A stretch of DNA of 57,163 nucleotides, taken from contig JAFPVW010000009.1 in assembly GCA_017395215.1 (NCBI GenBank), positions 1-57,163 of the forward strand, written 5' to 3'. This document shows, piece by piece, positions 407-26,300 of this stretch. The translations under genes were made by a program, and so were the position numbers. How positions within the stretch are numbered: the first letter of the stretch is position 1; each line of letters starts with the position of its first letter. Source of the stretch: Prevotella sp. GTDB lineage: Bacteria; Bacteroidota; Bacteroidia; Bacteroidales; Bacteroidaceae. A model generated the notes under the pieces. The model ran no database searches and was not told the origin of the DNA. It was given only the letters and a program-made list of their open reading frames with translations.

Positions 407-1957
407 TTATTGCTTGCTTGTGATGGAAATGTATTTGTCGTATGCCTTATCCCAGATTTCCTTCTCCTGCGGCTCGTAGCGGACGAGGTCGAGGGTGTCG
501 GCAATGATCTGGCGCATCTGCCAGATGTCGCTGACCAGACCGGCGGCCTTGGCCTGCAGCATGATGTTGCCGAGGGCGGTGCACTCCTGCGGGCCGGCGA
601 GGACGGTGGCACCGGTAGAGTTGGCCGTGAACTGGTTGAGATACTTGTTGAGCGAGCCACCGCCGATGATGTGGAGCACGTCGAGCTGGAACGGGGCAAA
701 CTCCTGCAGCCAGGTGAAGACCTGACGATAGCGCAGGGCCAGCGAGTCGAAGATGCAGCGGCAGATTTCGGCAGGCGTCTCGGGGACGGGCTGACCGGTC
801 TGGCGGCAGTACTGCTGGATAGCCTGAATCATCGACGTCGGGGCGGCGAACATCTGGTCGTCGGGATTGATGAGCGAGCGGAAGGGCTCTACCGTCATAG
901 CCGATGACTGCAATACAGCGTGGGAGAGAGCCCCCCCTACTGCCCCCGAGGGGGCTTCATTACCCTGTTGGACATTTGTGTCCCCCTCGGGGGACGACAG
1001 GGGGGCTTTCTGCCACTCCAGTCGGCAGCGCTCGTAGAGCCACATGCCGCAGATGTTCTTCAGGAAGCGGGTGGTGCCCTCGATGCCGCCTTCGTTGGTG
1101 AAGTTGCGCTCGTAGGAGAGGTCGCTGATGATGGCGTCCTTCGTCTCGATGCCCATGAGGCTCCACGTGCCGCTCGACAGGTAGGCAAACTGCTCGTCCT
1201 TGGCAGGAACGGCAGCAACGGCAGCTCCCGTGTCATGTCCGGCGACGGCAACAACAGGCACGGCGCCGAGGCCCGTCAGCCGCTGCACCTCGTCGGTGAG
1301 CACGCCGATGACCGTTCCCGGCTGCACCATGCGGCCGAACTTGCTGCGCGTCAGCCCTAACGAGGCGAGCAGGCGCTCGTCGAGCTGTTTGGTGCGCGGG
1401 TCGAGCAGCTGGCTGGTCGAGGCGATGGTATATTCGCACACCTCGTTGCCGGTGAGCATCCACGAGAGGGCGTCGGGGACGAAAAGGATTTTCGTCGCAC
1501 AAGAAAGGGCGCTGTTGCCCTCGCGGCGCATGGCGTAGAGCTGGAAGATGGAGTTGAAGTTAAGGAACTGAATGCCCGTGATGTCGTAGACCTCCTTGCG
1601 CGAGACGACGTGGCGCAGGTAGTCGTCCATCGCGTCGAATGTAATAGGATCACGATATGCGCGCGGATTCCTTAATATAGCGCCGTCGTCGCCGATGAGG
1701 ACGAAGTCGACGCCCCACGTGTCGATGCCGATGGAGGTAATCTCCAGGCCGCGGCGGGCTACTTCCTTCAGTCCCTTGATGATTTCAAAGTAGAGGGCGT
1801 AGATGTCCCAGTAGTAGTGGCCCCCCTGCTCAATGAGGTTGTTGGGAAATCGCGTCACCTCCTCTAACGAGAAGCGTCCGTCGGTGATGTTGCCGATAAT
1901 GGTGCGGCCGCTGGTGGCCCCCAGGTCTACGGCAAAGAAATACTTCTTCTGTTCCAT
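407..1957 (-). CDS. rhaB: L-rhamnulokinase with in-frame palindromic insert
   Basis: Phosphorylates L-rhamnulose to L-rhamnulose-1-phosphate (FGGY sugar kinase family). The 516-residue protein starts at the ATG at 1957. The N-terminal nucleotide-binding motif DLGATSGR lies at residues 11-18, and the C-terminal half carries the FGGY-type CRCIFDSLALRYR and HIIGGGSLNKYLNQF segments. Residues 318-343 are encoded by a 78-bp G/C-rich palindromic element (929-1006). They fall where E. coli RhaB has a short loop after the conserved GMWL-ER segment, so the insert probably lies in a surface loop. First gene of the rha operon, followed by rhaA; nhaD diverges upstream. A -7 element is visible on the minus strand upstream. 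Confidence 0.93.
   Translation of the reverse strand: MEQKKYFFAVDLGATSGRTIIGNITDGRFSLEEVTRFPNNLIEQGGHYYWDIYALYFEIIKGLKEVARRGLEITSIGIDTWGVDFVLIGDDGAILRNPRAYRDPITFDAMDDYLRHVVSRKEVYDITGIQFLNFNSIFQLYAMRREGNSALSCATKILFVPDALSWMLTGNEVCEYTIASTSQLLDPRTKQLDERLLASLGLTRSKFGRMVQPGTVIGVLTDEVQRLTGLGAVPVVAVAGHDTGAAVAAVPAKDEQFAYLSSGTWSLMGIETKDAIISDLSYERNFTNEGGIEGTTRFLKNICGMWLYERCRLEWQKAPLSSPEGDTNVQQGNEAPSGAVGGALSHAVLQSSAMTVEPFRSLINPDDQMFAAPTSMIQAIQQYCRQTGQPVPETPAEICRCIFDSLALRYRQVFTWLQEFAPFQLDVLHIIGGGSLNKYLNQFTANSTGATVLAGPQECTALGNIMLQAKAAGLVSDIWQMRQIIADTLDLVRYEPQEKEIWDKAYDKYISITSKQ
929..1006 (-). repeat. In-frame palindromic element, rhaB copy
   Basis: A 78-bp element (26 codons). Its outer arms (AGCCCCCC at 929-936 and its complement at 1000-1007) enclose two smaller hairpins, GCCCCC-GA-GGGGGC type at 942-955 and TCCCCC-TC-GGGGGA at 981-994, separated by a spacer of about 25 nt. 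On the rhaB strand it reads A-P-L-S-S-P-E-G ... [10 protein letters not shown]. The spacer and right half are nearly identical to the dnaE copy, including the frame. Confidence 0.9.
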
Positions 1958-1997
1958 ATTTGTTTTGTTGTGATTAGCTGTTTTAAGTTTACGTTTG

Positions 1998-2005
1998 CAA
2001 AGGTA
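1998..2005 (-). promoter_or_regulatory. -7 element, rhaB promoter
   Basis: TACCTTTG on the minus strand, 41 bp upstream of the rhaB start. No convincing TTTG is seen at the -33 distance, which would fit a promoter that needs an activator such as an AraC-type regulator (inference). Confidence 0.5.
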
Positions 2006-2055
2006 GTAATAAAAAGGCGGTGGCGATATGATAATTTGATTTTCTTACCTTTATT

Positions 2056-2087
2056 TTTGATTTATCGGAAAGAAAGTGTTACCTTTG
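2056..2087 (+). promoter_or_regulatory. nhaD promoter
   Basis: TTTG (2056-2059), 20 bp, TACCTTTG (2080-2087), matching the Bacteroidetes -33/-7 consensus. Transcription would begin near 2092, so the upstream in-frame alternative start at 2076 would not be in the mRNA and the ATG at 2115 is preferred. Confidence 0.8.
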
Positions 2088-2114
2088 CGGCGAAATTCAA
2101 TTACTTTATACAAT

Positions 2115-3446
2115 ATGGCAACATTAACAATCCTGATTGTCACCGTCTTCTGTATCGGCTACCTGTGCATAGCCTTGGAGAGCGTGACTAAAATCAACAA
2201 GGCGGCCATCGCCCTGCTGATGTGTGTGCTCTGCTGGACGCTCCTGATGATGGGCCCCGGCGCGTATTATCCTGAGGTCGCCGACGGTAGCGTGATCCAC
2301 CACATTGCCGAGGTCATCGAACATCACCTGGGCGATGCCGCCGGCACACTGTTCTTCCTGATGGGCGCTATGACCATCGTCGAGATTGTCGACTCAAACG
2401 GCGGCTTCAACTTCGTGCGCGACACGATGAAGACGCGGTCGAAGCGCAAGCTGATGTGGCGCATGGCCTTCATGACGTTCTTCCTGTCGGCCATCCTCGA
2501 CAACCTGACCACCTCCATCGTGATGATTATGGTGCTGCGCAAGCTGGTGCAGGCCCGCGAGGACCGGCTTATCTATGCCGCGCTCGTCGTCATTGCGGCC
2601 AACTCGGGCGGTGCCTTCTCGCCCATCGGCGACGTGACGACCATCATGCTGTGGATCAAGGGTGTCATTACGACGCAGGGCGTGCTGACCGAGATTTTCA
2701 TACCGTCGCTCGTGTCGATGCTCGTGCCGGCGTTCATCCTGCAGTACTCGCTGAAGGGGAAGTTCGACAAGGAGCAGAACCTGCCGAAGGCCGACGTCAG
2801 CCAGTTCACCCAGGCCCAGCGCACCACCATCTTCTGGCTCGGTGTGGGCGGCCTCTGCTTCGTACCTATCTTTAAGACGCTGACCCACCTGCCGCCGTTC
2901 ATGGGCATTCTGCTGGTGCTCGGCATCCTGTGGACCGTGACTGAGATTTTCCATTACAACACATCGGAAGAGGACACGATGGCCAAGCGCGTGAGCGACA
3001 TCATGACCAAGATTGACCTGTCGACCATCATGTTCTTCCTCGGCATTCTGATGGCAGTGGCCGTGCTGCAGGAGGTGGGCGTGCTGACAGCTCTCGGCGA
3101 GGGCCTGAACGAGACCTTCTCGGGCAACTACTACGTCATCAACGGCATCATCGGCATGCTCTCGTCGATTGTCGACAACGTGCCCCTCGTGGCCGGCTGT
3201 ATGGGCATGTACCCCGTGGCCGCCGAGGGAGCGATGGCCGTCGACGGCATCTTCTGGCAGCTGCTGGCCTACTGCGCCGGTGTGGGCGGCTCGATGCTTA
3301 TTATCGGCTCTGCCGCCGGCGTGGTGGTCATGGGATTGGAGAAGATTACCTTCGGCTGGTATATGAAGCGCATCACGTGGATAGCCTTCGTGGGCTATCT
3401 CGCTGGCATCCTCATCTACTGGCTGGAGCGTTCTCTGCTGTTCTAA
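2115..3446 (+). CDS. nhaD: Na+/H+ antiporter, NhaD family
   Basis: Inner-membrane exchanger that exports sodium in return for protons. The 443-residue protein is almost wholly hydrophobic, with about a dozen predicted membrane segments. Family segments include FFLSAILDNLTTSIVMIMVL, AANSGGAFSPIGDVTTIMLW and SSIVDNVPLVAG, the DNLTT and SPIGDVTT motifs being typical of NhaD/ArsB-type ion transporters. The start was chosen at MATLTILIV because the -7 element lies upstream of it and downstream of the longer alternative start. It is divergent from rhaB. Its 3' end overlaps the 3' end of the convergent AraC-type regulator gene by 35 bp. Confidence 0.9.
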   Translation: MATLTILIVTVFCIGYLCIALESVTKINKAAIALLMCVLCWTLLMMGPGAYYPEVADGSVIHHIAEVIEHHLGDAAGTLFFLMGAMTIVEIVDSNGGFNFVRDTMKTRSKRKLMWRMAFMTFFLSAILDNLTTSIVMIMVLRKLVQAREDRLIYAALVVIAANSGGAFSPIGDVTTIMLWIKGVITTQGVLTEIFIPSLVSMLVPAFILQYSLKGKFDKEQNLPKADVSQFTQAQRTTIFWLGVGGLCFVPIFKTLTHLPPFMGILLVLGILWTVTEIFHYNTSEEDTMAKRVSDIMTKIDLSTIMFFLGILMAVAVLQEVGVLTALGEGLNETFSGNYYVINGIIGMLSSIVDNVPLVAGCMGMYPVAAEGAMAVDGIFWQLLAYCAGVGGSMLIIGSAAGVVVMGLEKITFGWYMKRITWIAFVGYLAGILIYWLERSLLF

Positions 3447-4302
3447 GTTCGCTTGGCCGGCGTCCGGTCTTGATCTTGAACTTAGCTGAGAAATAGTCTG
3501 GCGACTCGAAGTTGAGTCGGTAGGCTATTTCTTTTATGCTCATGGCGGTGGTCGAGAGCAGTTCCTTGGCGCGCTGCAGGCGCAGGTCCTGCTGGTAGAT
3601 GGCCGGCGAAATGCCGGTGTGCTCTTTGAAGAGCTTGCGGAAGTTGGAGTAGCTGACGCCCATCTCGTCGGCCACCTGCTGGATGGTGAGGTTGCTTTCG
3701 AGGGCTTCGCGTATGCGCAGGCGAGCCTTACTAATCATATCGACGTGCGTCTGGTTGCGGCTCAGCTGGATGTTGCGCTCCAGTGAGTACATCAGTCCGA
3801 TGAGGTGGTTGACGATGCCGGCCATCAGCTGTTGCGAGTAGGCGGCCTCGATGACGGCTGTGTCGTATGCCTGCTTGTAGAGTCGCACAATCTCATCGCT
3901 GAAGCCGACGTGGTAGACGGGCTTCTGCGGCGAGAGGAAGCCGGCGCGCACGCGGTCGTCCATGTTGCGCCCCTTGAAACCTATCCAGTAGCTCTTCCAC
4001 CCGGTCTTGGGGTTGGGGCGGTAGGAGTGCCACTCGCCGGGGAAGAGCAGCCAGAGGTCGCCCTCGCGCAGCTTCGCCTCGCGGACGGTGGCGCTGTGGA
4101 ATATGCCTTCACCTTCGGTGAGGTAAAGCAGCTGGTACTCGTTGAGTTCGCGCCCGCGCTCCACTTCAAAGTAGTATCCGTCGGCGTGGCCGCGGGTGGG
4201 GTAGGAGTCTCCCGGTTTGATGTCCTCATAGCCAACGGTGCTGACGGTGAGGCCCCATAGAGAGTCGCGCTCATTGGCCAATAGGTATTTGCTGATTTGC
4301 AT
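3412..4302 (-). CDS. AraC-family transcriptional regulator, possible RhaR
   Basis: DNA-binding regulator of 296 residues. The N-terminal half (about 10-165) is a cupin-like ligand-binding domain with the family segments LLYLTEGEGIFHS and LREGDLWLLFPGEWHSYRP. The C-terminal about 100 residues hold two helix-turn-helix motifs (LTIQQVADEMGVSYSNFRKLF and MSIKEIAYRLNFESPDYFSAKF). It has its own promoter. AraC-type activators of rhamnose genes are known in Bacteroides (RhaR), and this gene lies about 1.5 kb from rhaB, separated by nhaD, so a role in rhamnose sensing is plausible but is inference. Its last 35 bp overlap the end of nhaD on the opposite strand. Confidence 0.88.
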   Translation of the reverse strand: MQISKYLLANERDSLWGLTVSTVGYEDIKPGDSYPTRGHADGYYFEVERGRELNEYQLLYLTEGEGIFHSATVREAKLREGDLWLLFPGEWHSYRPNPKTGWKSYWIGFKGRNMDDRVRAGFLSPQKPVYHVGFSDEIVRLYKQAYDTAVIEAAYSQQLMAGIVNHLIGLMYSLERNIQLSRNQTHVDMISKARLRIREALESNLTIQQVADEMGVSYSNFRKLFKEHTGISPAIYQQDLRLQRAKELLSTTAMSIKEIAYRLNFESPDYFSAKFKIKTGRRPSELRTAENAPASR

Positions 4303-4337
4303 ACACTATTAGGTTTTTGTCACTGTTTTTCTGCGCA

Positions 4338-4368
4338 CAAAGATAGGCAAATTCGTTGGAATAGCAAA
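4338..4368 (-). promoter_or_regulatory. Promoter of the AraC-type regulator
   Basis: On the minus strand: TTTG (4368-4365), 19 bp, TATCTTTG (4345-4338), 36 bp before the ATG. Confidence 0.78.
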
Positions 4369-4395
4369 ATAAAGAAATAAAAAAAATGTAAAACG

Positions 4396-4427
4396 CTTGG
4401 CAGTTTCAGGGAAAAGCGTTACTTTTG
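4396..4427 (+). promoter_or_regulatory. frr promoter
   Basis: CTTG (4396-4399), 20 bp, TACTTTTG (4420-4427). It overlaps the alternative upstream TTG start at 4425, which supports the ATG at 4455 for frr. Confidence 0.72.
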
Positions 4428-4454
4428 GGGGCAGAAAACTTAAAACGCAGAAAT

Positions 4455-5015
4455 ATGATAGACGTAAAAGAGACTTTGAAGAAGAGTGAGGAGAGAATGG
4501 AGATGGCCGCCATGTTCCTGGAAGAGGAGCTGAACCGCATCCGCGCCGGCCGTGCCAACGTAGCCATTCTCGACGGTGTCAGGGTGATGTCTTACGGCAG
4601 TAAGGTGCCCCTGAACCAAGTAGCAACCGTGATGACGCCCGACGCCCGCACCATCGCTATCAAGCCGTGGGACCGCAAGCAGATTCGCGACATTGAGAAG
4701 GCCATCATGGACAGCGACGTGGGCATCACGCCCGAGAACAACGGCGAGGTCATCCGTCTCGGCATTCCGCAGCCCACCGAGGAGCGCCGCCGCGACCTGG
4801 TGAAGCAGTGCAACAAGATAGCCGAGAAGGCCAAGGTTGAGGTTCGCAACGTTCGTGCCGACATCAAGGACAAGCTGAAGAAGGCCATCAAGGACGGACT
4901 CTCTGAGGACAACGAGAAGGACGCCGAGCTGGAGCTCCAGAAGATTCACGACAAGTACATCAAGAAGCTCGACGAACTGATTGAGGCCAAGAACAAGGAA
5001 ATCATGACCGTGTAG
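4455..5015 (+). CDS. frr: Ribosome recycling factor
   Basis: Splits the post-termination ribosome together with EF-G. The 186-residue product has the family's usual length and signature segments: LNRIRAGRANVAILDGV near the N-terminus, VMTPDARTIAIKPWDR, IPQPTEERRRDLVKQ, and a helical C-terminus. The ATG at 4455 is preferred over the TTG at 4425, because the latter overlaps the -7 promoter element. It is followed after 21 bp by rsgA, a gene order common in Bacteroidetes, which makes a two-gene ribosome-function operon. Confidence 0.97.
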   Translation: MIDVKETLKKSEERMEMAAMFLEEELNRIRAGRANVAILDGVRVMSYGSKVPLNQVATVMTPDARTIAIKPWDRKQIRDIEKAIMDSDVGITPENNGEVIRLGIPQPTEERRRDLVKQCNKIAEKAKVEVRNVRADIKDKLKKAIKDGLSEDNEKDAELELQKIHDKYIKKLDELIEAKNKEIMTV

Positions 5016-5020
5016 TTGAC

Positions 5021-5041
5021 AATTGAGAATTGAGAATTGAA
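5021..5041 (+). repeat. 7-bp tandem repeat (AATTGAR) spanning the rsgA start codon
   Basis: Three copies of AATTGAG/AATTGAA in a row fill the frr-rsgA gap. The TTG initiation codon of rsgA (5037-5039) lies inside the third copy, and no ordinary ribosome-binding sequence is present. Confidence 0.8.
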
Positions 5042-6014
5042 AGGTCTCGTCGTTAAGAACACGGGCAGCTGGTACACCGTCCGCACGGACGATGGCCGGC
5101 TGCTCGATTGCAAAGTTAAGGGAAACTTCCGTATCAAGGGCATACGGAGCACGAATCCCGTGGCCGTCGGCGACCGTGTGACCGTCAACGACGAGGGCTG
5201 GATTGTAGCCATCGACGACCGCCGCAACTACATCATCCGCAAGAGTATCAACCTCTCGAAACAGAGCCACATCCTGGCCGCAAACGTAGACCAGACACTG
5301 CTCATCATCACCGTAGCCCGCCCCGAAACCTCCACCACGTTCATCGACCGTTTCCTCGCTTCGGCCGAAGCCTACAGCGTGCCCGTCGTCCTGGTGTTCA
5401 ACAAGACCGACACGCTCAGCGCCGACGAACAGCACTACCAGCAGATGATGGTCACGCTCTACTCTGGCATCGGCTACGAGTGTCGCCAGATTTCGGCTGA
5501 GACGGGCGACGGCGTCGAAGAGCTCCGCCCACTGCTCGACGGCAAGATCACGCTGCTCAGCGGAAACAGCGGCGTGGGCAAGTCGACGCTCATCAACCGC
5601 CTCGTGCCCGGTGCCAACCTGCGCACGGCTGAAATCAGCGAGGCCCACCTCGCCGGTCAGCACACAACGACGTTCTCGGAGATGATAAGCCTGGCCCCCC
5701 CTACTGCCCCCGAGGGGGCTTCAAGTGCTGACGTGTCCCCCTCGGGGGACGACAGGGGGGCTTACCTCATCGACACGCCGGGCATCAAGGGCTTCGGCAC
5801 GTTCGACATGGAGCGCGAGGAGCTGACCAGCTACTTCCGCGAAATCTTCGAGTACAGCAAGCAGTGCCGCTTCAGCAACTGCACCCACACCCACGAGCCC
5901 GGCTGTGCCGTGCTGCGCGCCGTCGACGACCACCTGATAGCCCAGAGCCGCTACCAGTCGTACCTCTCCATGCTCGACGACAAGAACGAGAACCGCTACC
6001 GCGAAGCCTTCTGA
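5037..6014 (+). CDS. rsgA: Ribosome small-subunit GTPase RsgA with in-frame palindromic insert
   Basis: GTPase that acts in late maturation of the 30S subunit. Domains in order: N-terminal OB fold (about 1-70); circularly permuted GTPase with NKTD (122-125), GNSGVGKS (176-183) and DTPG (246-249); C-terminal zinc-binding segment [14 protein letters not shown]. The start is a TTG, chosen because [13 protein letters not shown] aligns with the N-terminus of Bacteroides RsgA; no ATG is available nearby. Residues 220-242 come from a palindromic element that separates the G2 region (HTTTFSEM) from the G3 motif, a place where other RsgA proteins have only a short turn. Downstream of frr in one operon. 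Confidence 0.94.
5694..5762 (+). repeat. In-frame palindromic element, rsgA copy
   Basis: A 69-bp element (23 codons). The outer arms are GCCCCCC (5694-5700) and GGGGGGC (5755-5761); inside are hairpins around 5706-5719 and 5736-5749. It encodes A-P-P-T-A-P-E-G-A ... [10 protein letters not shown], in the same frame as the rhaB and dnaE copies but with a shorter, unrelated spacer. Confidence 0.9.
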
Positions 6015-6130
6015 CAACTCATGATGATCGCCCCCAGTCTCAGCAATGGTCAAGACCACAAGGCAGCAGTTACTGAGCCTACTCATACGAGATAAAATGC
6101 TATCTTATTATGTAATTTACTAAACAATTA

Positions 6131-6161
6131 TTTGTGAATTAGGAAAAAAATGCTACCTTTG
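6131..6161 (+). promoter_or_regulatory. ptuA promoter
   Basis: TTTG (6131-6134), 19 bp, TACCTTTG (6154-6161), 22 bp before the ptuA ATG. The rest of the 6015-6183 gap shows nothing else. Confidence 0.82.
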
Positions 6162-6183
6162 CACACAAAAGAAAAATTATTCT

Positions 6184-8146: not shown

Positions 8147-8162
8147 GAAGGTGGAGGAGGAC

Positions 8163-15609: not shown

Positions 15610-16797
15610 ATGAAAGAATTAGCACTGAAGTATGGATGCAATCCGAACCAGAAGCCTTCGCGCATCTTCATGCAGGAGGGCGAGTTACCCATCGAAGTAA
15701 TCAACGGCCGTCCGGGCTACATCAATTTCCTCGACGCCTTCAACGCCTGGCAGCTGGTCAAAGAGCTGAAGGAGGCTACTGGCCTGCCCGCCGCCGCGTC
15801 GTTCAAGCACGTCAGCCCCGCCGGTGCTGCCGTGGGACTGCCGCTGACCGACACGCTGAAGAAAATCTATTTCGTCGACGATATCGAGGGACTCGATGAG
15901 TCGCCCATTGCCTGTGCCTACGCCCGTGCCCGCGGTGCCGACCGTATGTCGTCGTATGGCGACTTCGTGGCCCTGAGCGACACCTGCGACAAGACGACGG
16001 CCCTGCTGCTGAAGCGCGAGGTCAGCGACGGCGTGATTGCCCCCGGCTATACCGACGAGGCTATTGCAATTCTGAAGGACAAGCGCAAGGGCACGTATAA
16101 CGTCATAAAGATGGATCCGGCGTACCGTCCTGCTCCCGTGGAGACGAAGCAGTGCTTCGGCATCACCTTCGAGCAGGGACGCAACGAAATCCGCCTGAAC
16201 GCCCCCGCCCTGTTTGAGAATATTCCGACGCAGAACAAGACCTTCCCGGCTGAGGCCAAGCGCGACCTCATCATTGCACTCATCACGCTGAAGTACACGC
16301 AGTCGAACTCCGTCTGCTACGTCAAGGACGGCCAGGCCATCGGCATCGGTGCCGGTCAGCAGAGCCGCATCCACTGCACCCGTCTGGCTGGCAACAAGGC
16401 CGACATCTGGTGGCTGCGCCAGCACCCGAAGGTGATGTCGCTGCCCTTCAAGGAGGGCATCCGCCGTGCCGACCGCGACAACACCATCGACGTGTACATC
16501 TCTGAGGACGAGCACGACGACGTGCTGCGCGACGGCGCCTGGCAGCAGTTCTTCACCGAACAGCCTGCCGTGCTGACCCTTGACGAGAAGAAAGCCTGGA
16601 TAGCGCAGAACACAAAGGTGGCACTCGGCTCTGACGCCTTCTTCCCCTTCGGCGACAACATCGAGCGCGCCCACAAGAGCGGCGTGGAGTTCATTGCCCA
16701 GGCCGGCGGTTCCGTGCGCGACGACCATGTCATCATGACCTGCGACAAGTACGGCATCGCCATGGCGTTTACCGGCGTCAGGCTGTTCCACCATTAA
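15610..16797 (+). CDS. purH: AICAR formyltransferase without IMP cyclohydrolase domain
   Basis: Transfers the formyl group of 10-formyltetrahydrofolate to AICAR, the penultimate step of IMP synthesis. The 395-residue protein begins MKELALKYGCNPNQKPSRIF and holds the AICARFT segments AAASFKHVSPAGAAVG, ARARGADRMSSYGDFVALSD, YTQSNSVCYVKDGQAIGIGA and HKSGVEFIAQAGGSVRDD. The N-terminal MGS-like cyclohydrolase domain of the usual bifunctional PurH (about 500 residues) is absent, so the ring closure to IMP must be done by another protein. Its stop codon is followed at once by a G/C-rich palindromic half element. The symbol is given by homology to the C-terminal part of PurH. Confidence 0.92.
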   Translation: MKELALKYGCNPNQKPSRIFMQEGELPIEVINGRPGYINFLDAFNAWQLVKELKEATGLPAAASFKHVSPAGAAVGLPLTDTLKKIYFVDDIEGLDESPIACAYARARGADRMSSYGDFVALSDTCDKTTALLLKREVSDGVIAPGYTDEAIAILKDKRKGTYNVIKMDPAYRPAPVETKQCFGITFEQGRNEIRLNAPALFENIPTQNKTFPAEAKRDLIIALITLKYTQSNSVCYVKDGQAIGIGAGQQSRIHCTRLAGNKADIWWLRQHPKVMSLPFKEGIRRADRDNTIDVYISEDEHDDVLRDGAWQQFFTEQPAVLTLDEKKAWIAQNTKVALGSDAFFPFGDNIERAHKSGVEFIAQAGGSVRDDHVIMTCDKYGIAMAFTGVRLFHH

Positions 16798-16798
16798 A

Positions 16799-16831
16799 AG
16801 CCCACCCCCAACCCCTCCCCAAGGGAGGGGA
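16799..16831 (+). repeat. Intergenic palindromic half element
   Basis: Begins two bases after the purH stop codon. It contains the hairpin CCCCTCCC (16812-16819) / GGGAGGGG (16823-16830), preceded by a CCCACCCC tract. A close relative lies directly after the SusC stop at 46584-46616. Without a following T tract it is not a standard terminator. Confidence 0.75.
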
Positions 16832-16850
16832 GTAATAAAAACAACAGACT

Positions 16851-17051: not shown

Positions 17052-17055
17052 GAGA

Positions 17056-17084: not shown

Positions 17085-18747
17085 ATTCCACGCGCAGCAC
17101 CTGGTCGCAGTAGTCGACGACGGCTGGGCGGTGGGTGATGAAGATGACGGTCTTCTGCTTGTCCGACAAGATATTCTGTAACAACTGCCGTTCTGTGTCG
17201 GGGTCGAGGGCCGAGGTGGCCTCGTCGAAGAGCATGATGCTGCGGCCACGGAGCAGGGCGCGGCCGATGGCGATGCGCTGGGCCTGGCCCTCGCTGAGTC
17301 CGCCGCCAGCCTCGGTGCAAACGGTGTCAAGGCCCTGCGGGAGGTCGGCAACAAAGTCGCCACAGACGAGGTGGAGAACGCGCCAGAGGTCGTCGTCGGT
17401 GGCACCAGGGCGGGCAATGAGCAGGTTGTCGCGGATGGTGCCGCTGAGCAGGGTGTTGCCCTGAGGTACGTAGACAAAGTTGCAGCGGTGGAGGGGTGAG
17501 ATTTCCTCAGCCTTGTGCTGATCATAGATGCTGACCTGCCCGGACTTCGGCCGGATCAGGGCCAGGATCAGGCGGACAAGCGTTGTCTTGCCGGCACCCG
17601 TCTCGCCGAGGATGGCCGTACACGTGCCGGGACGGAAGTCGAACGACAGATGGTCGATGACGGGCACCGGGGAGTCCTCGTAGCCATAGGTGACGTCCTC
17701 GAACCTTATGCCGCAGGGGGCCGCCATCTCGACGCCATCGCCCTGCTGCTCCTGCGGGGCCTCCTCCAGCTCCATCAGTCGCTCGGCAGAGGTGAATACG
17801 CTCACGAAGGCGGGAGCCAGACGTGTCAGGTCGCGGGCCGGTCCCTGGATGCGGTAGACCAGCTGCAGGAAGGCCGTCATCTGTCCGAAGGTGATGGTGC
17901 GAGCGCTCAGTCGGACCGCTCCCCAGAGGAAGGCGATGAGATAGCCCAACGAGAAACCGCCGTTGACGAAGAGGTTGCTGGCTATCGAGAACTTGGTGCG
18001 CTGGCGCACATGATAGCGCAGTTCCGACTGCGTGTCGCCGAGTCGGTCGACCATCTGGTCGCCGGCCTCCAGCGTCTTGATGAGCATGCGGTGCTGCACG
18101 GTCTCGGTCAGCAGGCTCTGCACCTGACTGTCACTGTTGCGCACCCGGCGGGTGTACTTCCTCATCTGGGCGACATAGATGCGGCTGACGAGGATGAACA
18201 GCGGCAGGATGCCCACGGTAATGAGCGAGAGCCAGACGTCCATCTGGAACAGGTAGACAAAGGCACCCAGAAAGAGGGCCATGGTCGAGAGCGTATTGGG
18301 CAGCGTCTCGGTAATGAACGTCACCACCGTCTGCACGTCTTGCTCCAGCCGGTTGATGACGTCGCCGCTGTGGTGGGTGTCCTTGCTCTGCCATTCGGCC
18401 CGCAGCAGGCGGTCGAGCATCTGCTGCTGCATCAGGTTCTGAGCCTTGACACCGAGGATGTTCTTAATCCACACCCGCGAGATACCCAGTGCAAACTCGG
18501 CCAGGATAACGGTTCCCATCAGGGCCACGCCCCAGTAGATGGACCCGGGGACGACACCCGTCGCCATGTCGATGGTGCGCTGCATGGCCCACACCATCAG
18601 CAGACTGCACGCCACACCCAGCATACCGATGGAGGCGTTGAACAACGCCTGCGTGCGGTTGCCGCGCAGCACGCGCCACAGCCACCTGACGATTTGCCGG
18701 ATGGTGTACTTGCTTTCCGGGTTATGCAGTTTCTCTATCAGTCTCAT
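17083..18747 (-). CDS. ABC transporter, fused permease and ATPase
   Basis: Half-size exporter of 554 residues: an N-terminal type I exporter membrane domain with about six hydrophobic segments (roughly 30-310), then a nucleotide-binding domain. Motifs: Walker A GETGAGKTT, Q-loop PQGN, signature LSEGQ, Walker B IMLFDEATSALD, H-loop ITHRP. The substrate cannot be read from the sequence; lipid, peptide or drug export is usual for the family. The ATG at 18747 is preferred over a GTG at 18753. Its ribosome-binding sequence (AAAGGTG) belongs to the upstream tandem repeat. Downstream of nadK on the same strand, probably co-transcribed. Confidence 0.88.
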   Translation of the reverse strand: MRLIEKLHNPESKYTIRQIVRWLWRVLRGNRTQALFNASIGMLGVACSLLMVWAMQRTIDMATGVVPGSIYWGVALMGTVILAEFALGISRVWIKNILGVKAQNLMQQQMLDRLLRAEWQSKDTHHSGDVINRLEQDVQTVVTFITETLPNTLSTMALFLGAFVYLFQMDVWLSLITVGILPLFILVSRIYVAQMRKYTRRVRNSDSQVQSLLTETVQHRMLIKTLEAGDQMVDRLGDTQSELRYHVRQRTKFSIASNLFVNGGFSLGYLIAFLWGAVRLSARTITFGQMTAFLQLVYRIQGPARDLTRLAPAFVSVFTSAERLMELEEAPQEQQGDGVEMAAPCGIRFEDVTYGYEDSPVPVIDHLSFDFRPGTCTAILGETGAGKTTLVRLILALIRPKSGQVSIYDQHKAEEISPLHRCNFVYVPQGNTLLSGTIRDNLLIARPGATDDDLWRVLHLVCGDFVADLPQGLDTVCTEAGGGLSEGQAQRIAIGRALLRGRSIMLFDEATSALDPDTERQLLQNILSDKQKTVIFITHRPAVVDYCDQVLRVE

Positions 18748-18753
18748 CTTCAC

Positions 18754-18857
18754 CTTTCACTCTTCACTCTTCACTCTTCACCCTTCACTTCACCCTTCAC
18801 CTTTCACCCTTCACTTCACCCTTCACCTTTCACCCTTCACCTTTCACCCTTCACCTG
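18754..18857 (-). repeat. 7-bp tandem repeat (GGTGAAR) between nadK and the ABC gene
   Basis: On the minus strand about a dozen GGTGAAG/GGTGAAA units, with some slippage to GTGAAGTGAAG, fill the whole gap. The nadK stop codon (TGA, 18853-18851) and the ribosome-binding sequence of the ABC gene are both made of repeat sequence. Confidence 0.85.
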
Positions 18858-19735
18858 ACATCCGCTCCCCACATCATTTTCTCGCGCAGCGTCGTAAAGT
18901 ACTGGTTGTTGCTGCGCTTCACCACCTGAATATTATAAGGTGCACGGCGCAGGGTGATACGTGTCTCCTCGCGGCACTTCTCTGAGCGGCCGTCGATGGC
19001 TACTAAGAACGAGTGGCTGCGACTCTCGACGTCGAGCGTGACGACCGCCGTGTCGGGAATGACGATGGGGCGGATGTTCAGCGAGTGGGGAGCTACGGCC
19101 GTCATCAGCAGCACCCCCGTGCCGGGCACGATGATGGGACCGCCGTTCGACAGTGAGTAGGCCGTGGAGCCGGTCGGCGTCGAGACTATCAGACCGTCGG
19201 CCTGGTAGGTGGTCAGGTGCTTGCCGTCGATGCTGGCACGGATGCTGATCATCGAGGCCGTGTCGCGCTTCAGCACGGCCACGTCGTTCAGGGCGCAGTT
19301 CATCGAGCCCAACGGCTCGCCGTCGGCCTCCACCTGAATGACGGCGCGGCTCTCCACGACAAAGTCGTCGATGTAGAGAGCGTGCAGGCATGACTCTATG
19401 TCGCCGGGGGCGATGTCGGCCAGGAAGCCGAGCCGCCCCATGTTGACGCCAAGAATGGGTATGTTACGGCTGCCCACGCGGTTGGCCGTCTTCAGGAACG
19501 TGCCGTCGCCACCCATTGAGATGGCGAAGTCGGCATCGAAGTCGCTATCGGTGAAGACCCTTGCCGCAGGAACGTTGATGCGCTGGTCGTTCTTGAGGAA
19601 ATCATAATACTCCTGGTCGACGGCCAGTTCGGCTCCGTCCTCACTCAGACAGGACAGCACTTTTTGTATGGCCGCCGACTTCTTAGCCTGATAGATATTG
19701 CCGAAAAGGGCGAACTTTAGCTTGCGTTGCGTCAT
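18851..19735 (-). CDS. nadK: NAD kinase
   Basis: Phosphorylates NAD to NADP, 294 residues. Signature segments: GGDGT (75-79), NIPILGVNMGRLGFLADI, NDVAVLKRD, the dinucleotide-binding TYQADGLIVSTPTGSTAYS, and LVAIDGR near the C-terminus. The ATG at 19735 (MTQRKLKFALFG) was chosen because the longer frame to 19807 runs through the promoter. The stop codon lies in a tandem repeat. The promoter is shared in a palindrome with the divergent DJ-1 family gene. Confidence 0.95.
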   Translation of the reverse strand: MTQRKLKFALFGNIYQAKKSAAIQKVLSCLSEDGAELAVDQEYYDFLKNDQRINVPAARVFTDSDFDADFAISMGGDGTFLKTANRVGSRNIPILGVNMGRLGFLADIAPGDIESCLHALYIDDFVVESRAVIQVEADGEPLGSMNCALNDVAVLKRDTASMISIRASIDGKHLTTYQADGLIVSTPTGSTAYSLSNGGPIIVPGTGVLLMTAVAPHSLNIRPIVIPDTAVVTLDVESRSHSFLVAIDGRSEKCREETRITLRRAPYNIQVVKRSNNQYFTTLREKMMWGADVR

Positions 19736-19774
19736 TTTTTTGCCTTGAATGTTCGTGGTTTCAGAAATTATTAT

Positions 19775-19795
19775 TATCTTTGCGCTGCAAAGATA
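19775..19795. promoter_or_regulatory. Palindromic divergent -7 elements, nadK and DJ-1 gene
   Basis: TATCTTTGC (19775-19783) and GCAAAGATA (19787-19795) form a perfect inverted repeat around GCT. Each arm is a full TAnnTTTG -7 element, one for the plus-strand DJ-1 gene and one for minus-strand nadK, so the two predicted start sites fall inside each other's element. Confidence 0.7.
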
Positions 19796-19823
19796 CTTAA
19801 TTTCCACGAAAAAAGAAAGAATT

Positions 19824-20390: not shown

Positions 20391-20407
20391 TGTTTAACAA
20401 CGAAAGT

Positions 20408-21088
20408 ATGGATTATGTTATCATCGTTGCAGGCGGCAAGGGCCTGCGCATGGGCAGCGACATTCCGAAGCAGTTCCTGCCCGTCGGCGGGCGGCCGGTG
20501 CTGATGCGCACCATAGAGCGGTTTCGTGAGTATTCGGCCGACCTGCAGATTATTCTGGTGCTGCCCAAAGCCCAGCAGGACTACTGGCGGCAGTTATGCC
20601 AAGAGTATCATTTTCCGCTCCCTCAACAGGGAGAGGACAGGGGTGGCGCTTACCAGTTAGCCGACGGCGGCGAGACCCGCTTCCACTCTGTGCAGCATGG
20701 ACTGGCACTGATTCCCGACGATGCCCGGGGGGTCGTCGGCGTTCACGACGGCGTGCGTCCGTTTCCGTCGGTCGAGGTCATCGCCCGCTGCTACGAGACG
20801 GCCCGCGTCCAGAAGGCCGTCGTCCCCGTCGTCCCCATCGTCGAGACCTTGCGCCACGTCGCTGAAGGCACCAAGCCCCGTGGCGACTACCGCCTCGTGC
20901 AGACCCCGCAGACATTCGACATCCAGCTGCTGAAAGCCGCCAACCGGCAGCCTTACAACGACAATTTCACCGACGATGCCTCCGTCGTCGAAGCCTACGG
21001 CCACCCCATCACCCTCGTCGACGGCAACCGCGAGAACATCAAGATTACTACCCCCTACGACCTGCGAATAGCCGAGGTACTGATATAA
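20408..21088 (+). CDS. ispD: 2-C-methyl-D-erythritol 4-phosphate cytidylyltransferase
   Basis: Transfers CMP to methylerythritol phosphate in the MEP isoprenoid pathway, 226 residues. The nucleotide-binding N-terminus [51 protein letters not shown] and the C-terminal [13 protein letters not shown] are all visible. An alternative start at 20390 overlaps the stop of the preceding gene and would add six residues. Residues 70-81 ([12 protein letters not shown]) come from a short palindromic G/C-rich element and precede the conserved LADGGETRF. recG begins at the very next base after its stop. Confidence 0.94.
20615..20650 (+). repeat. Short in-frame palindromic element, ispD copy
   Basis: A 36-bp (12-codon) element with the hairpin CTCCCT (20618-20623) / AGGGAG (20628-20633), followed by a G-rich half (GGACAGGGGTGGCGCT) resembling the 3' part of the rsgA and recG copies (ending D-R-G-G-A). 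A reduced relative of the family. Confidence 0.65.
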
Positions 21089-23254
21089 ATGGACATTCTG
21101 AAGCAGGACATCATGTACTTGCCGGGCGTGGGCCCCAACCGCAAGAAGATACTCAGCGAGGAGCTGGGTATCCAGACCTACGGCGACCTGTTGGAGTACT
21201 ACCCTTACAAGCACGTAGACCGCTCGCGGGTGTACACCGTCCATGAGTTGACGGGCGACATGCCGTTCGTTCAGGTGGTGGGTACCATCCTGAGTTTCGA
21301 GACGTTCAAGATGAGTCCTACGAAAGACCGGGTCGTCGGCCACTTCAGCGACGGCACAGGTATCATGGACCTGGTGTGGTTCGGTGCCGGCGGAAAATAT
21401 GCCAAACAGAACTACCGCATCGGCACGGAGTACCTGGTGTTTTGCAAGCCCACCGTCTTCAACAACCGCATACAGGTGAGCCATCCTGACATTGACGAGG
21501 CCTCGAAGGTAGACACCTCGGCAATGGGGATGCAGCCCTACTACAACACGACGGAGAAGATGAAGAAGCGCGGACTCACCTCGCGCTCGGTAGAGCGGAT
21601 AGTCAAGACGCTGCTCGAAAAGCTGACGTCACCCGTCGGCGAGACCATCCCCGACTTCATCACCGCACGACTGCACCTGATGGGCCGCGACGCGGCGCTG
21701 CGCACCATTCACTACCCCCAGAGCGCCCGAGAACTGGAGCGTGCCCGCGTCCGTCTGAAGTTCGAGGAGCTGTTCTTTGTGCAGCTTAATATCTTAAGGT
21801 ACGCGAGCGACCAGCGGCGCAAGTACCTGGGCTATGTGTTCAGCCATGTCGGCGAGGTGTTCAACGACTTCTACCACAACCACCTGCCCTTCCCGCTGAC
21901 GGAGGCTCAGAAGCGCGTCATCCGCGAAATCCGCAAGGACATGGGCAGCGGGCGCCAGATGAACCGTCTGCTGCAGGGCGACGTCGGCTCAGGAAAAACC
22001 CTCGTCGCCCTGATGTCGATGCTCATTGCCATCGACAACGGCTACCAGGCCTGCATCATGGCTCCGACAGAGATACTGGCTGAGCAGCACCTGCAGACCA
22101 TCCGCCAGTTTCTCGGCGACATGCCCGTCCGCGTGGCCCTGCTGACGGGCATCGTCAAGGGCAAGCGGCGGAAGGAAGTACACGAAGGACTGCTCGACGG
22201 CACCATCCAGATTCTCGTGGGCACCCACGCCGTCATCGAGGACACGGTGCAGTTTGCCCGCCTCGGCTTCGTGGTCGTCGACGAGCAGCACCGCTTCGGC
22301 GTGGCCCAGCGCGCCAAACTGTGGGCCAAAAGCCCCCTCCAACCTCCCCCCGAAGGGAAGGTCCCGGCGCAGCAAGCCTCCCCTTCGGGGGAAGGTTGGA
22401 GGGGGCTTCCCCACGTCCTCGTGATGACTGCCACGCCCATTCCCCGCACACTGGCCATGACGCTCTATGGCGACCTCGACGTGAGCGTCATCGACGAGCT
22501 GCCGCCGGGGCGCAAGCCCGTGGTGACGCACCACTTCTTCGACTCGCGCATCACGTCGCTCTACAACGGTATCCGCCAGCAGATTAACCAGGGCCGGCAG
22601 GTCTACTGCGTGTTCCCGCTTATCGAGGAGAGCGAGAAGAGCGACCTGAAGAATCTGGAGCAGGGCTACGAAGTGCTCTGCCAGGCCTTCCCCGAGTTCC
22701 GCCTGAGCAAAGTCCACGGCAAGATGAAACCCGCCGACAAGGAGGAGGAGATGCAGCGCTTCGTCAGCGGCGAGACGCAGATCCTCGTCGCCACGACCGT
22801 CATCGAGGTGGGCGTCAACGTGCCCAATGCCTCGGTGATGGTCATCTTCGACGCCCAGCGCTTCGGCCTCTCTCAGCTCCACCAGCTGCGCGGCCGCGTA
22901 GGGCGCGGTGCCGACCAGTCGTACTGCCTGCTGGTCACACCCTATAAGCTCAGCGAGGACACTCGCAAGCGCATCGACATCATGTGCGACACGAACGACG
23001 GCTTCCGCATTGCCGAGGCCGACCTGAAGCTGCGCGGCCCCGGCGACCTGGAGGGCACCCAGCAGAGCGGCATGGCCTTCGACCTGAAGATAGCCGACAT
23101 TGCCCGCGACGGCCAGCTCGTCCAGATGGCCCGCGACGAGGCTCAGCTCATCATCGACGAAGATCCCACCTGCACGTCGGAGAAGTACCAGATTCTGTGG
23201 AACCGGCTGCGACAGCTGCGCAAGACCAACATCAACTGGGGCGTCATATCGTAG
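21089..23254 (+). CDS. recG: ATP-dependent DNA helicase RecG with in-frame palindromic insert
   Basis: Branch-migrating helicase that remodels stalled forks and recombination intermediates, 721 residues. An N-terminal wedge/OB region is followed by the helicase core: GDVGSGKT (297-304), MAPTEILAEQH, DEQHRFG (398-404), MTATPIPRT (about 446-454), QVYCVFPLIEES, TTVIEVGVNVPNA and QLRGRVGRG. Residues 415-440 (SPLQPPPEG ... SPSGEGWRG) are encoded by a palindromic element and sit between motif II and motif III, where E. coli RecG has a short loop. The gene starts immediately after the ispD stop. Confidence 0.95.
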   Translation: MDILKQDIMYLPGVGPNRKKILSEELGIQTYGDLLEYYPYKHVDRSRVYTVHELTGDMPFVQVVGTILSFETFKMSPTKDRVVGHFSDGTGIMDLVWFGAGGKYAKQNYRIGTEYLVFCKPTVFNNRIQVSHPDIDEASKVDTSAMGMQPYYNTTEKMKKRGLTSRSVERIVKTLLEKLTSPVGETIPDFITARLHLMGRDAALRTIHYPQSARELERARVRLKFEELFFVQLNILRYASDQRRKYLGYVFSHVGEVFNDFYHNHLPFPLTEAQKRVIREIRKDMGSGRQMNRLLQGDVGSGKTLVALMSMLIAIDNGYQACIMAPTEILAEQHLQTIRQFLGDMPVRVALLTGIVKGKRRKEVHEGLLDGTIQILVGTHAVIEDTVQFARLGFVVVDEQHRFGVAQRAKLWAKSPLQPPPEGKVPAQQASPSGEGWRGLPHVLVMTATPIPRTLAMTLYGDLDVSVIDELPPGRKPVVTHHFFDSRITSLYNGIRQQINQGRQVYCVFPLIEESEKSDLKNLEQGYEVLCQAFPEFRLSKVHGKMKPADKEEEMQRFVSGETQILVATTVIEVGVNVPNASVMVIFDAQRFGLSQLHQLRGRVGRGADQSYCLLVTPYKLSEDTRKRIDIMCDTNDGFRIAEADLKLRGPGDLEGTQQSGMAFDLKIADIARDGQLVQMARDEAQLIIDEDPTCTSEKYQILWNRLRQLRKTNINWGVIS
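22331..22408 (+). repeat. In-frame palindromic element, recG copy (variant stem)
   Basis: A 78-bp element (26 codons) with perfect 15-bp outer arms, AGCCCCCTCCAACCT (22331-22345) and its complement (22393-22407), and inner CCCC-GAA-GGG type hairpins. It encodes S-P-L-Q-P-P-P-E-G ... A-S-P-S-G-E-G-W-R-G-L, the same frame and P-E-G/P-S-G layout as the other copies although the stem sequence belongs to a different subfamily. Confidence 0.9.
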
Positions 23255-23305
23255 CGTCTTCAGGAAACAAAGTAAGTGAAGTTAATATAAAAAAGGAAGA
23301 ATGTG

Positions 23306-23337
23306 TTTGGAAAATCCAGCATAATTAAGTACCTTTG
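23306..23337 (+). promoter_or_regulatory. dnaE promoter, predicted leaderless
   Basis: TTTG (23306-23309), 20 bp, TACCTTTG (23330-23337). The dnaE ATG begins only 6 bp after the element, where transcription should start. Confidence 0.8.
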
Positions 23338-23342
23338 CACAC

Positions 23343-26300
23343 ATGGAAGACTTTATACACCTGCACGTACATACATATTACTCTATCCTTGACGGACAAT
23401 CGAAGATTTCGAAGCTTGTGGACAAGGCCATCGGCAATGGCATGCGAGGCATGGCCGTGACCGACCATGGCGACATGTTCGGTATCAAGGAGTTCCACGA
23501 CTATTGCATCGGCATTAACAAGAAACGCCAGAAGGAAGGGCTGGAGCCGTTCAAGCCCATCTTCGGCTGCGAGATGTACGTCTCGCGCCACGGCTCGAAG
23601 TCGCTGCGTCGTGGTAAGGAGGACCAGAGCGGCTATCACTTGATAGTGCTGGCCAAGAACTACCAAGGTTACAAGAACCTGATCAAGCTTGTGTCGAACT
23701 CGTGGGTGGACGGCTACTACATGCGTCCGCGAACCGATCGTGAGGATTTGGAGCGCTACCATGAGGGGCTCATTGTCTGTTCGGCCTGCATTGCCGGCGA
23801 GGTGCCCAAGAAGATACTGAATGGCGACATGGCAGGAGCGCGCGAGGCTGTGGAGTGGTATCACCGCGTGTTTGGCGACGACTACTACCTGGAGCTGCAG
23901 CGCCACGAGGTGAAGAACCCGGCACAGCGCGCCAACCGCGAGACGTTCCCCCTGCAGCAGCAGGCCAATAAGGTGCTCATCGAACTGGCACGCGAATACG
24001 GCATCAAGCTTATCTGCTCGAACGACGTCCACTTTGTGGATGAGGAGAATGCTGAGGCCCACGACCACCTGCTCTGCCTGTCGACGGGCAAGGACCTGGA
24101 CGACCCCACCCGCATGCTCTACTCGAAACAGGAGTGGTTCAAGACGCGTGAGGAGATGAACGCCATCTTCAGCGATGTCCCCGAGGCGCTGTCGAACACG
24201 CTGGAGATATTAGACAAGGTGGAAATCTACTCGCTCGACCATGATCCCATCATGCCGTTCTTCCCCATTCCCGAGGAGTTTGGTACTGAGGAGCAGTGGC
24301 GCCAGAAGTTCTCCGAGGAAGACCTCTACCGCGAGTTCACCAGCGACGAGAACGGCGAGAACCCGCTGCCGCGTGAGGAAGGTGAGAAGAAAATCAAGAA
24401 GCTCGGTGGCTACGACAAGATATACCGCATCAAGTTTGAGGCCGACTATCTGGCGAAGCTGGCGTATGAAGGAGCAATGAAACGTTACGGAGTGGCCCCC
24501 CCTTCTGCCCCCGAGGGGGCTACAAATGTGTTGCAGCAAGGTAATGAAGCCCCCTCGGGGGCAGTAGGGGGGGCTTCGGGGCCTTCGGCTTCCGAGGTCC
24601 TTGACCGCATTCGCTTCGAGCTGCATATCATGAAGACGATGGGTTTTCCTGGCTACTTCCTCATCGTGCAGGACTTCATCAACTCCGCCCGCGACGAGCT
24701 GGATGTCTGGGTAGGTCCGGGCCGAGGCTCGGCAGCTGGCTCGGTGGTGGCCTACTGCCTGGGCATCACGAAGATTGACCCGCTGAAATACGACCTGCTG
24801 TTTGAGCGTTTCCTGAATCCTGACCGTATCTCGCTGCCCGATATAGATACCGACTTCGATGACGACGGTCGCGGCAAGGTGCTGAAATGGGTGATGGACA
24901 AGTATGGCCATGAGAACTGTGCCCACATCATTACCTACGCCTCGATGGCCACGAAGAACAGTATCAAGGATGTGGCGCGGGTGGAGAAACTGCCACTGGC
25001 CACGTCGAACGCGCTGTGTAAGGCCATTCCCGACCGTCTGCCAGAGGGCATGAAGATGAATCTGGCCAACGCTATCAAGGCTGTTCCTGAGCTGCGCGAT
25101 GCCGAAGCTTCGGCCGACCCCGTGCTGGCCAACACGATCAAGTATGCCAAGATGCTGGAGGGTACTGTCCGCGGCACTGGCATCCACGCCTGCGGCTTTA
25201 TCATCTGCCGCGACCCCATCTCGGACTGGGTGCCCGTCTCAACGGCCGACGACCCCGACTTCAAGGACACGAAGACGAACTGCACGCAGTACGATGGTCA
25301 CGTTATTGAGTCGACGGGACTCATCAAGATGGACTTCCTCGGACTGAAGACCCTGTCGGAGCTGAAGGAGGCCTGTGCCAATGTCAAGCAGCACCGGGGA
25401 ATCGATATCGATCTTGACACCATACCCATTGACGACCCCAAGACCTACGAGCTGTACCAGCAGGGCCGTACCATCGGCACCTTCCAGTTTGAGTCGGCAG
25501 GCATGCAGAAATACCTGCGCGAGCTGCACCCGACGGTGTTTGAGGACCTCATAGCCATGAACGCCCTCTACCGTCCGGGACCTATGGACTATATACCGAG
25601 TTTCATTGCCCGTAAGAACGGCCGCGAGGAAATCAAGTACGACATTCCCTGTATGGAGAAGTACCTGAAAGACACCTACGGCATTACCGTCTATCAGGAG
25701 CAGGTGATGCTGCTCTCACGTCAGCTGGCCGACTTTACCCGTGGCGAGAGCGATGCCCTGCGTAAGGCGATGGGTAAGAAGAAAAAGGACATCGTCGACG
25801 CCATGAAGCCAAAGTTTATTGAGGGGGGCAAGAAGAACGGCCACGACCCGAAGGTGCTGGAGAAAATCTGGGCCGACTGGGAGAAGTTCGCATCCTATGC
25901 CTTCAACAAGTCGCACGCCGCCTGCTACTCTTGGGTAGCCTACCAGACGGCCTACCTGAAGGCCAACTACCCGGCTGAGTTCATGGCTGCCATCATGAGC
26001 CGCCGCCGCGACCAGATAACGGAAATTACGAAACTGATGGACGAGTGCAAGCAGATGGGCATTGCCACGCTGGGACCCGACGTCAACGAGTCGTTCCAGA
26101 AGTTCGGCGTGAACCATAAGGGCGAAATCCGCTTCGGGCTGGCCGCCATCAAGGGCATGGGCGACTCGGCGGCACAGGCCATCATCGACGAGCGTGAGGC
26201 GAACGGCCCCTTCAGGAGTATCTTCGACTTTGCCCAGCGTGTGTCGTTTTCCAGTGTCAACCGCAAGGCCTACGAGTCGCTGGCACTCAGTGGCGGTTTC

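Follow-up and report, generated by a model that had tools for sequence, protein, structure and literature searches.

Why do four conserved, unrelated genes in one stretch of Prevotella DNA each contain a short, GC-rich palindrome that leaves their reading frame intact? The window analysed here is the whole of contig JAFPVW010000009.1 (57,163 nt), one contig of the 3.6 Mb draft genome of a Prevotella species (assembly GCA_017395215.1; 211 contigs, 85% complete, 5.9% contamination). A sequence-only reading had described a single family of palindromic elements in rhaB, rsgA, recG and dnaE, all read in the same frame, and had expected the encoded peptide to be flexible and hydrophilic. The four palindromes lie where that reading placed them, with lengths of 78, 69, 78 and 81 nt, respectively, every one a multiple of 3, and the host frame continues through each of them, the rhaB copy standing on the minus strand. 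The names given to the four hosts also fit their Pfam matches (FGGY_N/FGGY_C, RsgA_GTPase, RecG_wedge/DEAD/Helicase_C and PHP/DNA_pol3_alpha). Folded as RNA, the palindromes reach -49 to -69 kcal/mol (z -4.9 to -7.8), a stability equalled in none of 200 shuffles.

At least two families are needed to describe them. The copies in rhaB, rsgA and dnaE share the arms GCCCCCCCTWCNGCCCCCGAGGGGGC and are designated family A; the recG copy has arms of the type AGCCCCCTCCAACCTCCCCC... and is designated family B. A query of the own genome with the recG copy returns different places from the family A query, and a single family was rejected because both the arms and the match set differ.

From the comparisons presented below, we consider it probable that these are short mobile palindromic DNA elements, selfish or near-neutral, which are adapted to life inside coding genes. 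A family A element consists of two inverted GC-rich arms of ~26 nt around a variable loop, the length of which is nearly always a multiple of three, so that the host frame is not shifted, and one phase of it encodes a low-complexity peptide of about 22-30 residues, rich in A, G, P, S, E and T. New copies would arise where a protein is permissive and would, in some cases at least, take the place of a few codons. Purifying selection would retain copies in the benign phase and in the orientation that gives a hydrophilic loop, and the surviving copies would be those whose peptide the host protein tolerates. By inference, the peptide is translated, the host tolerates it without drawing a benefit from it, and older copies give rise to new ones.

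Family A within the genome

Merging of 91 similarity matches gave 40 family A places in the own genome, some of which are single halves; scoring covered 40 of 45 candidates, which makes this count a lower bound. For family B, places were sampled by their similarity to the recG copy, and merging gave 34. Recurrence at 40 and 34 places in a 3.6 Mb draft is not chance.

Genic location was assigned by a flank test, in which a codon model trained on the window genes scores the six frames of 180 nt on each side, with the element itself excluded. At 31 of the 36 family A places with two usable flanks, these flanks share a frame and the element is in a single phase, reading ...PEG...PSG... (the PEG phase). 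Counted over genic places alone, of which there are 32 among the 36, the PEG phase is used in 31. Four further places lie at contig edges with one usable flank each, and all four are in the PEG phase.

Hosts were named by scanning 30 own-genome frames, drawn from the 40 places, together with the four window proteins; 27 of the 30 frames gave a match. They include the arginine, methionine and glutamate/glutamine-type tRNA ligases, CTP synthase (with two inserts), glutamate synthase (GltB), IspH, GlmM, DapF, CCA transferase, GcvT, Mfd, UvrA, Kdo transferase, an ABC-F protein, a chromate transporter and glycoside hydrolases. In the chromate transporter gene (own C134 and L100) the family A element forms the gene tail, a few codons before the stop, and in both genomes the following gene, which is in another frame, adjoins this tail.

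Family A in other genomes

The core pair of family A is present in 52 of the 299 genomes of the genus, the own genome included, at 1 to 46 copies each, and a reversed control pattern is present in none of the genus genomes among the matches listed. By similarity, family A was detected in 15 of a further 59 same-genus genomes, whereas the 40 genomes searched that belong to different genera of the order gave none. When 84,980 species genomes were scanned, at least 115 stretches with family A were obtained; the 80 of these with titles listed are all Prevotella, Prevotellaceae or Bacteroidaceae, and the stated source animals are ruminants. Among the matches listed, family A thus appears, so far, to be confined to the Prevotella group.

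A set of 164 copies from other genomes was used for the tests that follow, after removal of own copies (L115, L139) and of copies identical over 25 nt on either side (L329, L359); every copy in the set has two exact cores, so that the set leaves out diverged ones. Measured from core to core, 159 of the 164 have a length divisible by three. By the flank test 126 of the 164 are genic, and 125 of these 126 are in the PEG phase; expressed over the 156 non-edge copies, 125 lie in one frame and one phase in unrelated genes. Of the remaining 38 copies, 14 have a single coding flank, 10 have flanks in differing frames of the same strand, and in 4 the flanks lie on opposite strands; 8 are edge copies and 2 stand in non-coding surroundings. 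The proposal of a protein-coding family like the Rickettsia palindromic elements (RPEs), with a genome-wide preference for one frame, is borne out by these counts (31 of 32 genic copies in the own genome and 125 of 126 elsewhere).

A probable filter on the encoded peptide

Turning a family A element round keeps its phase and length. Of 124 genic PEG-phase copies whose length is divisible by three, 120 contain no stop when turned, yet for 108 of these 120 it is the orientation actually used that gives the more hydrophilic loop (mean hydropathy -0.43 versus +1.14, p 4e-19; other genomes), and in the own genome the same is true of 18 of 20 copies, in line with the hydrophilic peptide that had been predicted. 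Because the hydrophilic orientation is preferred even though the reverse is stop-free, the orientation bias, taken with the single phase, is strong evidence of a filter on the encoded peptide. The orientation signal may reflect selection at insertion or later change, and either way would act on the peptide.

These rules also bear on the idea that the elements are not translated at all. The byp elements of mitochondria are sequences skipped by the ribosome, and the Prevotella elements might likewise be skipped, or removed from the mRNA. The very stable hairpins in the mRNAs of the four window genes would suit such a process, as would the many housekeeping genes among the hosts. However, one phase, a length that is a multiple of three, the absence of stops and the hydrophilic orientation hold for nearly all genic copies, and skipped DNA would need none of these four rules, which therefore argue against skipping or removal. 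Translational bypass was rejected on this basis, and we regard a lack of translation as very improbable.

Empty sites and repeatedly occupied loops

A recG match was found in all 60 genomes searched, and none of the 29 relatives with aligned loci has the insert. The site reads mostly LWSKSANPPHVLV or similar, in some relatives with a loop a few residues longer, and in the nearer genome G339 12-13 nt occupy the position of the own element. In rhaB the insert is missing from all 18 aligned relatives, the site being 12 nt long in 13, 11 nt by a shifted anchor in 2, of other lengths (3, 32) in 2 and mis-anchored in 1. As the relatives have ~12 nt where the element stands, a few codons were replaced at recG and rhaB, instead of a pure insertion having taken place, and the expectation of clean insertion does not hold at these sites. 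No target-site duplication was seen at these two, the empty sites compared, where the flanks of the relatives are 75-95% alike and the fine borders correspondingly uncertain. In the flanks of the 29 recG loci dnaE was not recovered beside recG, and it was searched separately. One recG match, G017:C50:5471-7561, contains three in-frame TAA codons.

The absence from orthologues that the sequence-only reading had offered as a check thus stands for recG (29/29) and rhaB (18/18) but is only partial for rsgA and dnaE, where 1 of 19 and 2 of 17 relatives, respectively, carry family A in the same position with loops that differ. At the rsgA site, 5 of the 19 relatives have 9-12 nt and G285 has a family A element with another loop; other palindromic sequence is found in G051, G059 and G023, tandem repeats such as (AACTCTC)n in several, and other sequence in a few. 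At the dnaE site, G051 and G059 carry family A, each with a different loop, G034 has a B-like palindrome, 5 relatives have other extensions and 9 are short. In PyrG, compared in three genomes, family A occupies the first variable loop of all, and at least three further loops differ. Since different repeats occupy them in different species, we read the rsgA, dnaE and pyrG sites as insertion hotspots. Seven rsgA inserts were each represented by one word of 12 to 17 bases, and no second place was found for these words in the 3 to 19 loci compared from the same genomes. At the pyrG loci L321, L297 and L341 and the rsgA loci L223-L242, in-frame palindromes or (AACTCTC)n-type tandem repeats vary by Prevotella genome.

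A broader reading, which we put forward tentatively as possible rather than probable, is that of a standing process in Prevotella by which a restricted number of tolerant loops in essential proteins would be overwritten by repeat DNA. Families A, B and E and tandem repeats would be copied in, replace the native turn, be swapped and be lost, as selfish DNA whose niche is coding sequence and whose phase and orientation are selected at the protein level. If it is true, the same RsgA, DnaE or PyrG loop should read differently across many species.

Genic background and the other families

Random positions of the same DNA sample are genic in 71% of cases (150-nt flanks), a rate that describes the neighbourhood of the A and B copies around which the control stretches were chosen, rather than the whole genome. 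Family A exceeds it in the own genome (32/36, p 0.011), elsewhere (126 of 156 non-edge copies, p 0.005) and when pooled (p 3e-4), and therefore does not avoid genes.

Family B is genic in one frame at 29 of 34 places by the flank test. The phase is 0 in 20 of these 29, 1 in 6, both in 2 and assigned to none in 1. The claim that all elements are read in the same frame is thus close to absolute for family A and describes only a majority of family B. In the DNA sample used for the random positions, family E palindromes are genic in one frame in 10 of 15 cases. There, none of 9 units of family C (a CTTCCTACACTTCC hairpin) and none of 8 of family D (AAAACCCGCCGCC tandem units) is genic, and the two are not independent samples, since both lie together at 8 loci.

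Dispersal, loop change and mobilising machinery

Within one genome, an identical 33-nt loop occurs at two sites with unrelated flanks (L290, L291), and the rhaB copy is 96% identical over 78 nt to the C102 copy in another gene. At sites common to two genomes there are 43 copy pairs, of which 41 have flanks of <97% identity; arm identity in these was computed outside the cores, which account for the 24 of 52 arm positions fixed by the search pattern. Loops differ in 33 of the 41 pairs, with a difference in length as well in 22, always by multiples of three, so that loops change or are replaced at many sites. In the other 8 pairs the loop is identical and the arms are 96-100% alike beside flanks that are 83-97% alike, so that in some cases the whole element is either of more recent date than its flanks or under stronger constraint. 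Among the shared sites, eight picked by hand, in which the loops match fully or almost so, show 96% identity in the first 15 nt and 86-88% beyond, in a set too selected to separate homing, exchange and constraint.

Constraint would be expected if the inserts were functional, the peptide or the hairpin benefiting the host as a linker or in translation regulation. The 8 pairs just described could be read in this way, and retention in housekeeping genes would agree with it. Against a benefit stand the empty rhaB and recG sites of all aligned relatives, the unrelated sequences at the same rsgA and dnaE sites in other species, and the many unrelated hosts; we hold function to be improbable.

The elements might also be classical repetitive extragenic palindromes (REPs), or the bacterial interspersed mosaic elements (BIMEs) built of them, moved by a REP-associated tyrosine transposase (RAYT) of the Y1 HUH type and surviving in genes by chance. 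Their inverted-dimer hairpin architecture would suit this origin, as would the two Y1_Tnp genes in the own genome, and intragenic REPs encoding 20-30 residues are described in excerpts of PMC3733652. The REP-like tag CTAC/GTAG adjoins the hairpin in 154 of 376 units, but this is only 41%; in 83 of 376 the stem is preceded by CGT (TTCGT 54, GTCGT 29), which reads CGTC with the first C of the stem, and there is no one conserved tag. Family A is mostly genic, whereas REPs are not, and at recG and rhaB target nucleotides were replaced. The Y1 transposase-like gene on C48 has hairpins of its own, and no family A or B hairpin was found in the stretch around the Y1_Tnp gene on C141. Among family A carriers 12 of 16 have a Y1_Tnp match over the cut-off, and among non-carriers 22 of 44 do (Fisher p 0.14), a difference short of significance in a comparison weakened by incomplete genomes; the four carriers without one are G022, G023, G056 and G057 (drafts 56-81% complete). 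That the elements are classical REPs moved by a RAYT is, in our judgement, unlikely.

The hairpins flanking the C48 gene (L086 about 2310-3430) are of a different type, GGGGACAGTCCCC/TGTGAGG, and the arrangement recalls the genes flanked by terminal inverted repeats with a GGGGWSAS motif in excerpts of PMC3733652.

Observations that weigh against mobile coding-adapted elements

Several results count against the reading that we prefer. Of the 124 copies used for the orientation test, 80 have only the PEG phase open, so that stop avoidance may account for some of the frame rule; on the other side, 44 are open in a second phase as well and every one of them uses the PEG phase, in a set into which PEG use is built by its definition. 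Since codons and their complements tend to exchange hydrophilic for hydrophobic residues, the orientation signal could have come about once the element was in place. At the 41 shared sites the arms outside the cores are 86.7% identical and the flanks 86.3%, the arms being higher in 22 of 41 (p 0.59); the arms have thus diverged as far as the flanks and give no indication of being homogenised by exchange. In the own genome and a 60-genome comparison, no transposase could be linked with the family A or B elements by position or co-occurrence, and no parent element was found. Exceptions to the coding rule occur in the own genome, where C157, a poor match to family A, is genic in phase 1, C24 and C134 lie at gene ends with one flank in the PEG phase, C64 has one flank coding and the other not, and C141 is non-coding. 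The sole genic copy outside the PEG phase in other genomes, L279, is in phase 0.

The four window inserts, which the sequence-only reading had placed in loops or linkers, all fall in breaks or gaps when their hosts are aligned with the best-matching solved structures. Compared with random positions of their host proteins, however, the six residues that border an insert on either side are slightly more hydrophobic and less prone to turns (n=128 copies, of which two are own; p 0.001 and 0.0005, respectively), with a sign opposite to expectation. A replaced tight turn between strands would fit this result, yet the result is no evidence for one. The unrelated repeats at the rsgA and dnaE sites of relatives also come near the finding that the earlier reading had set against its own proposal, namely orthologues carrying the same segment with unrelated nucleotide sequence.

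Finally, the named genomes among the matches listed are metagenome-assembled genomes (MAGs) or uncultured isolates, mostly MAGs, and the own contigs C174, C165, C199 and C124 end in or near elements, as would be expected if the elements were assembly artefacts or chimeras. Different genomes nevertheless have the same sites with diverged flanks, and misassembly would not produce the frame and orientation rules. An artefact was rejected on both grounds and is highly improbable.

Relation to known systems

In-frame palindromic elements are best known from Rickettsia, where the mechanism is not settled. Like RPEs, the Prevotella elements are palindromic, repeated, in frame in unrelated genes, similar in the encoded peptide and patchy among related species. 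By description, rather than by sequence comparison with RPE families, the Prevotella element would work like an RPE. It differs in belonging to another phylum, in its length of 69-90 nt, in a large majority of genic copies, in its one phase and hydrophilic orientation, and in that its sites are also occupied by other repeat types. Excerpts of PMC10969869 give ~150 bp for RPEs and place nearly half of those first reported in open reading frames (ORFs).

The likeness to intragenic REPs lies in small hairpins, often paired in inverted orientation, in 20-30 encoded residues, and in dnaE and repair genes as hosts. Full family A copies are two inverted halves, which matches the inverted dimer of REPs, and single halves also occur. 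Unlike REPs, which are mostly extragenic and have a conserved tetranucleotide, most copies here are genic and have no conserved tag. Intragenic GTAG/CGTC REPs, for example those of Opitutus terrae and RPE-4/RPE-6 of Rickettsia conorii, form dimers in genes that encode 20-30 residues, according to excerpts of PMC3733652. The same excerpts record CGTC repeats from Bacteroidetes among other phyla and do not name the species, and some overlap of our elements with a described repeat is therefore possible.

Two more distant parallels deserve mention. Miniature inverted-repeat transposable elements (MITEs) such as ERIC and RUP are non-autonomous inverted-repeat DNA able to fuse to ORFs. The Prevotella elements share these properties, and differ in that target nucleotides were replaced and no duplication was seen at the two empty sites, recG and rhaB. 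ERIC and RUP are named in excerpts of both PMC10969869 and PMC3733652. Palindromes within coding sequence are described in mitochondrial genes of Nematomorpha (PMC6649704, in excerpt); these, too, are inverted repeats inside protein-coding genes, but the setting is animal mitochondria, and the lines available from that paper do not mention a dispersed repeat family.

Among the top-ranked literature matches, in which subscription journals are thinly covered, there was no report of in-frame palindromic elements in Prevotella or Bacteroidales. Our best reading, by analogy, is that the elements are coding-adapted, RPE-like selfish palindromes in uncultured Prevotella. More than 100 copies over many genomes of one genus allow absence, presence and replacement to be compared at one site, and the creation of protein sequence, the movement of the elements and the reason for their presence in genes are therefore testable. 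The insert sites also show, as a natural map, where essential bacterial enzymes tolerate insertion, and Prevotella gene models and homology searches will meet these inserts.

Host genes and other features of the window

The host genes and elements of the window are collected in Table 1. The rsgA insert falls between motifs G2 and G3, and the recG insert between DEQH (II) and TATP (III).

Table 1. Host genes and palindromic elements located in the 57,163-nt window
Feature	Position	Strand	Support and remarks
rhaB, rhamnulokinase, FGGY family, 516 aa	407..1957	-	Pfam FGGY_N, FGGY_C; best solved relative 2cgj, L-rhamnulose kinase
Family A palindromic element in rhaB, read as 26-residue peptide	929..1008	-	Flank test; none in 18/18 aligned relatives
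rsgA, ribosome small-subunit GTPase, 325 aa	5037..6014	+	Pfam RsgA_GTPase, RsgA_N; structure 1u0l
Family A palindromic element in rsgA, rarer orientation, 23-residue peptide	5694..5762	+	Site apparently a hotspot in relatives
Family E palindrome unit (CCCACCCCCAACCCCTCCC)	16792..16831	not assigned	Coding flanks in differing frames
recG helicase, 721 aa	21089..23254	+	Pfam RecG_wedge, DEAD, Helicase_C, RecG_dom3_C; structure 1gm5
Family B palindromic element in recG, read SPLQPPPEGKVPAQQASPSGEGWRGL	22330..22408	+	None in 29/29 aligned relatives
dnaE, DNA polymerase III alpha, 1267 aa	23343..27146	+	Pfam PHP 6-188, DNA_pol3_alpha 369-667
Family A palindromic element in dnaE, 27-residue peptide	24495..24575	+	Past PHP domain, at N-terminal edge of polymerase region
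Family E palindrome unit	46577..46616	not assigned	Coding flanks in differing frames

At gathering scores, Rfam matches in the whole window are limited to two tRNAs. A non-genic composite repeat, in which units of ~21 nt (AAAACCCGCCGCCTTTT) stand close to a CTTCCTACACTTCCTACACC hairpin, lies at 8 loci, one in the window (38653-38923; no Rfam match at gathering scores within the window) and the others on own C29, C85, C16, C141, C26, C96 and C206. Tandem TTCACCTTTCACTC / CTCCTCAACTC repeats are found at window positions 18735-18859 and 37380-37495, the former extending to the 3' end of a plus-strand ORF.

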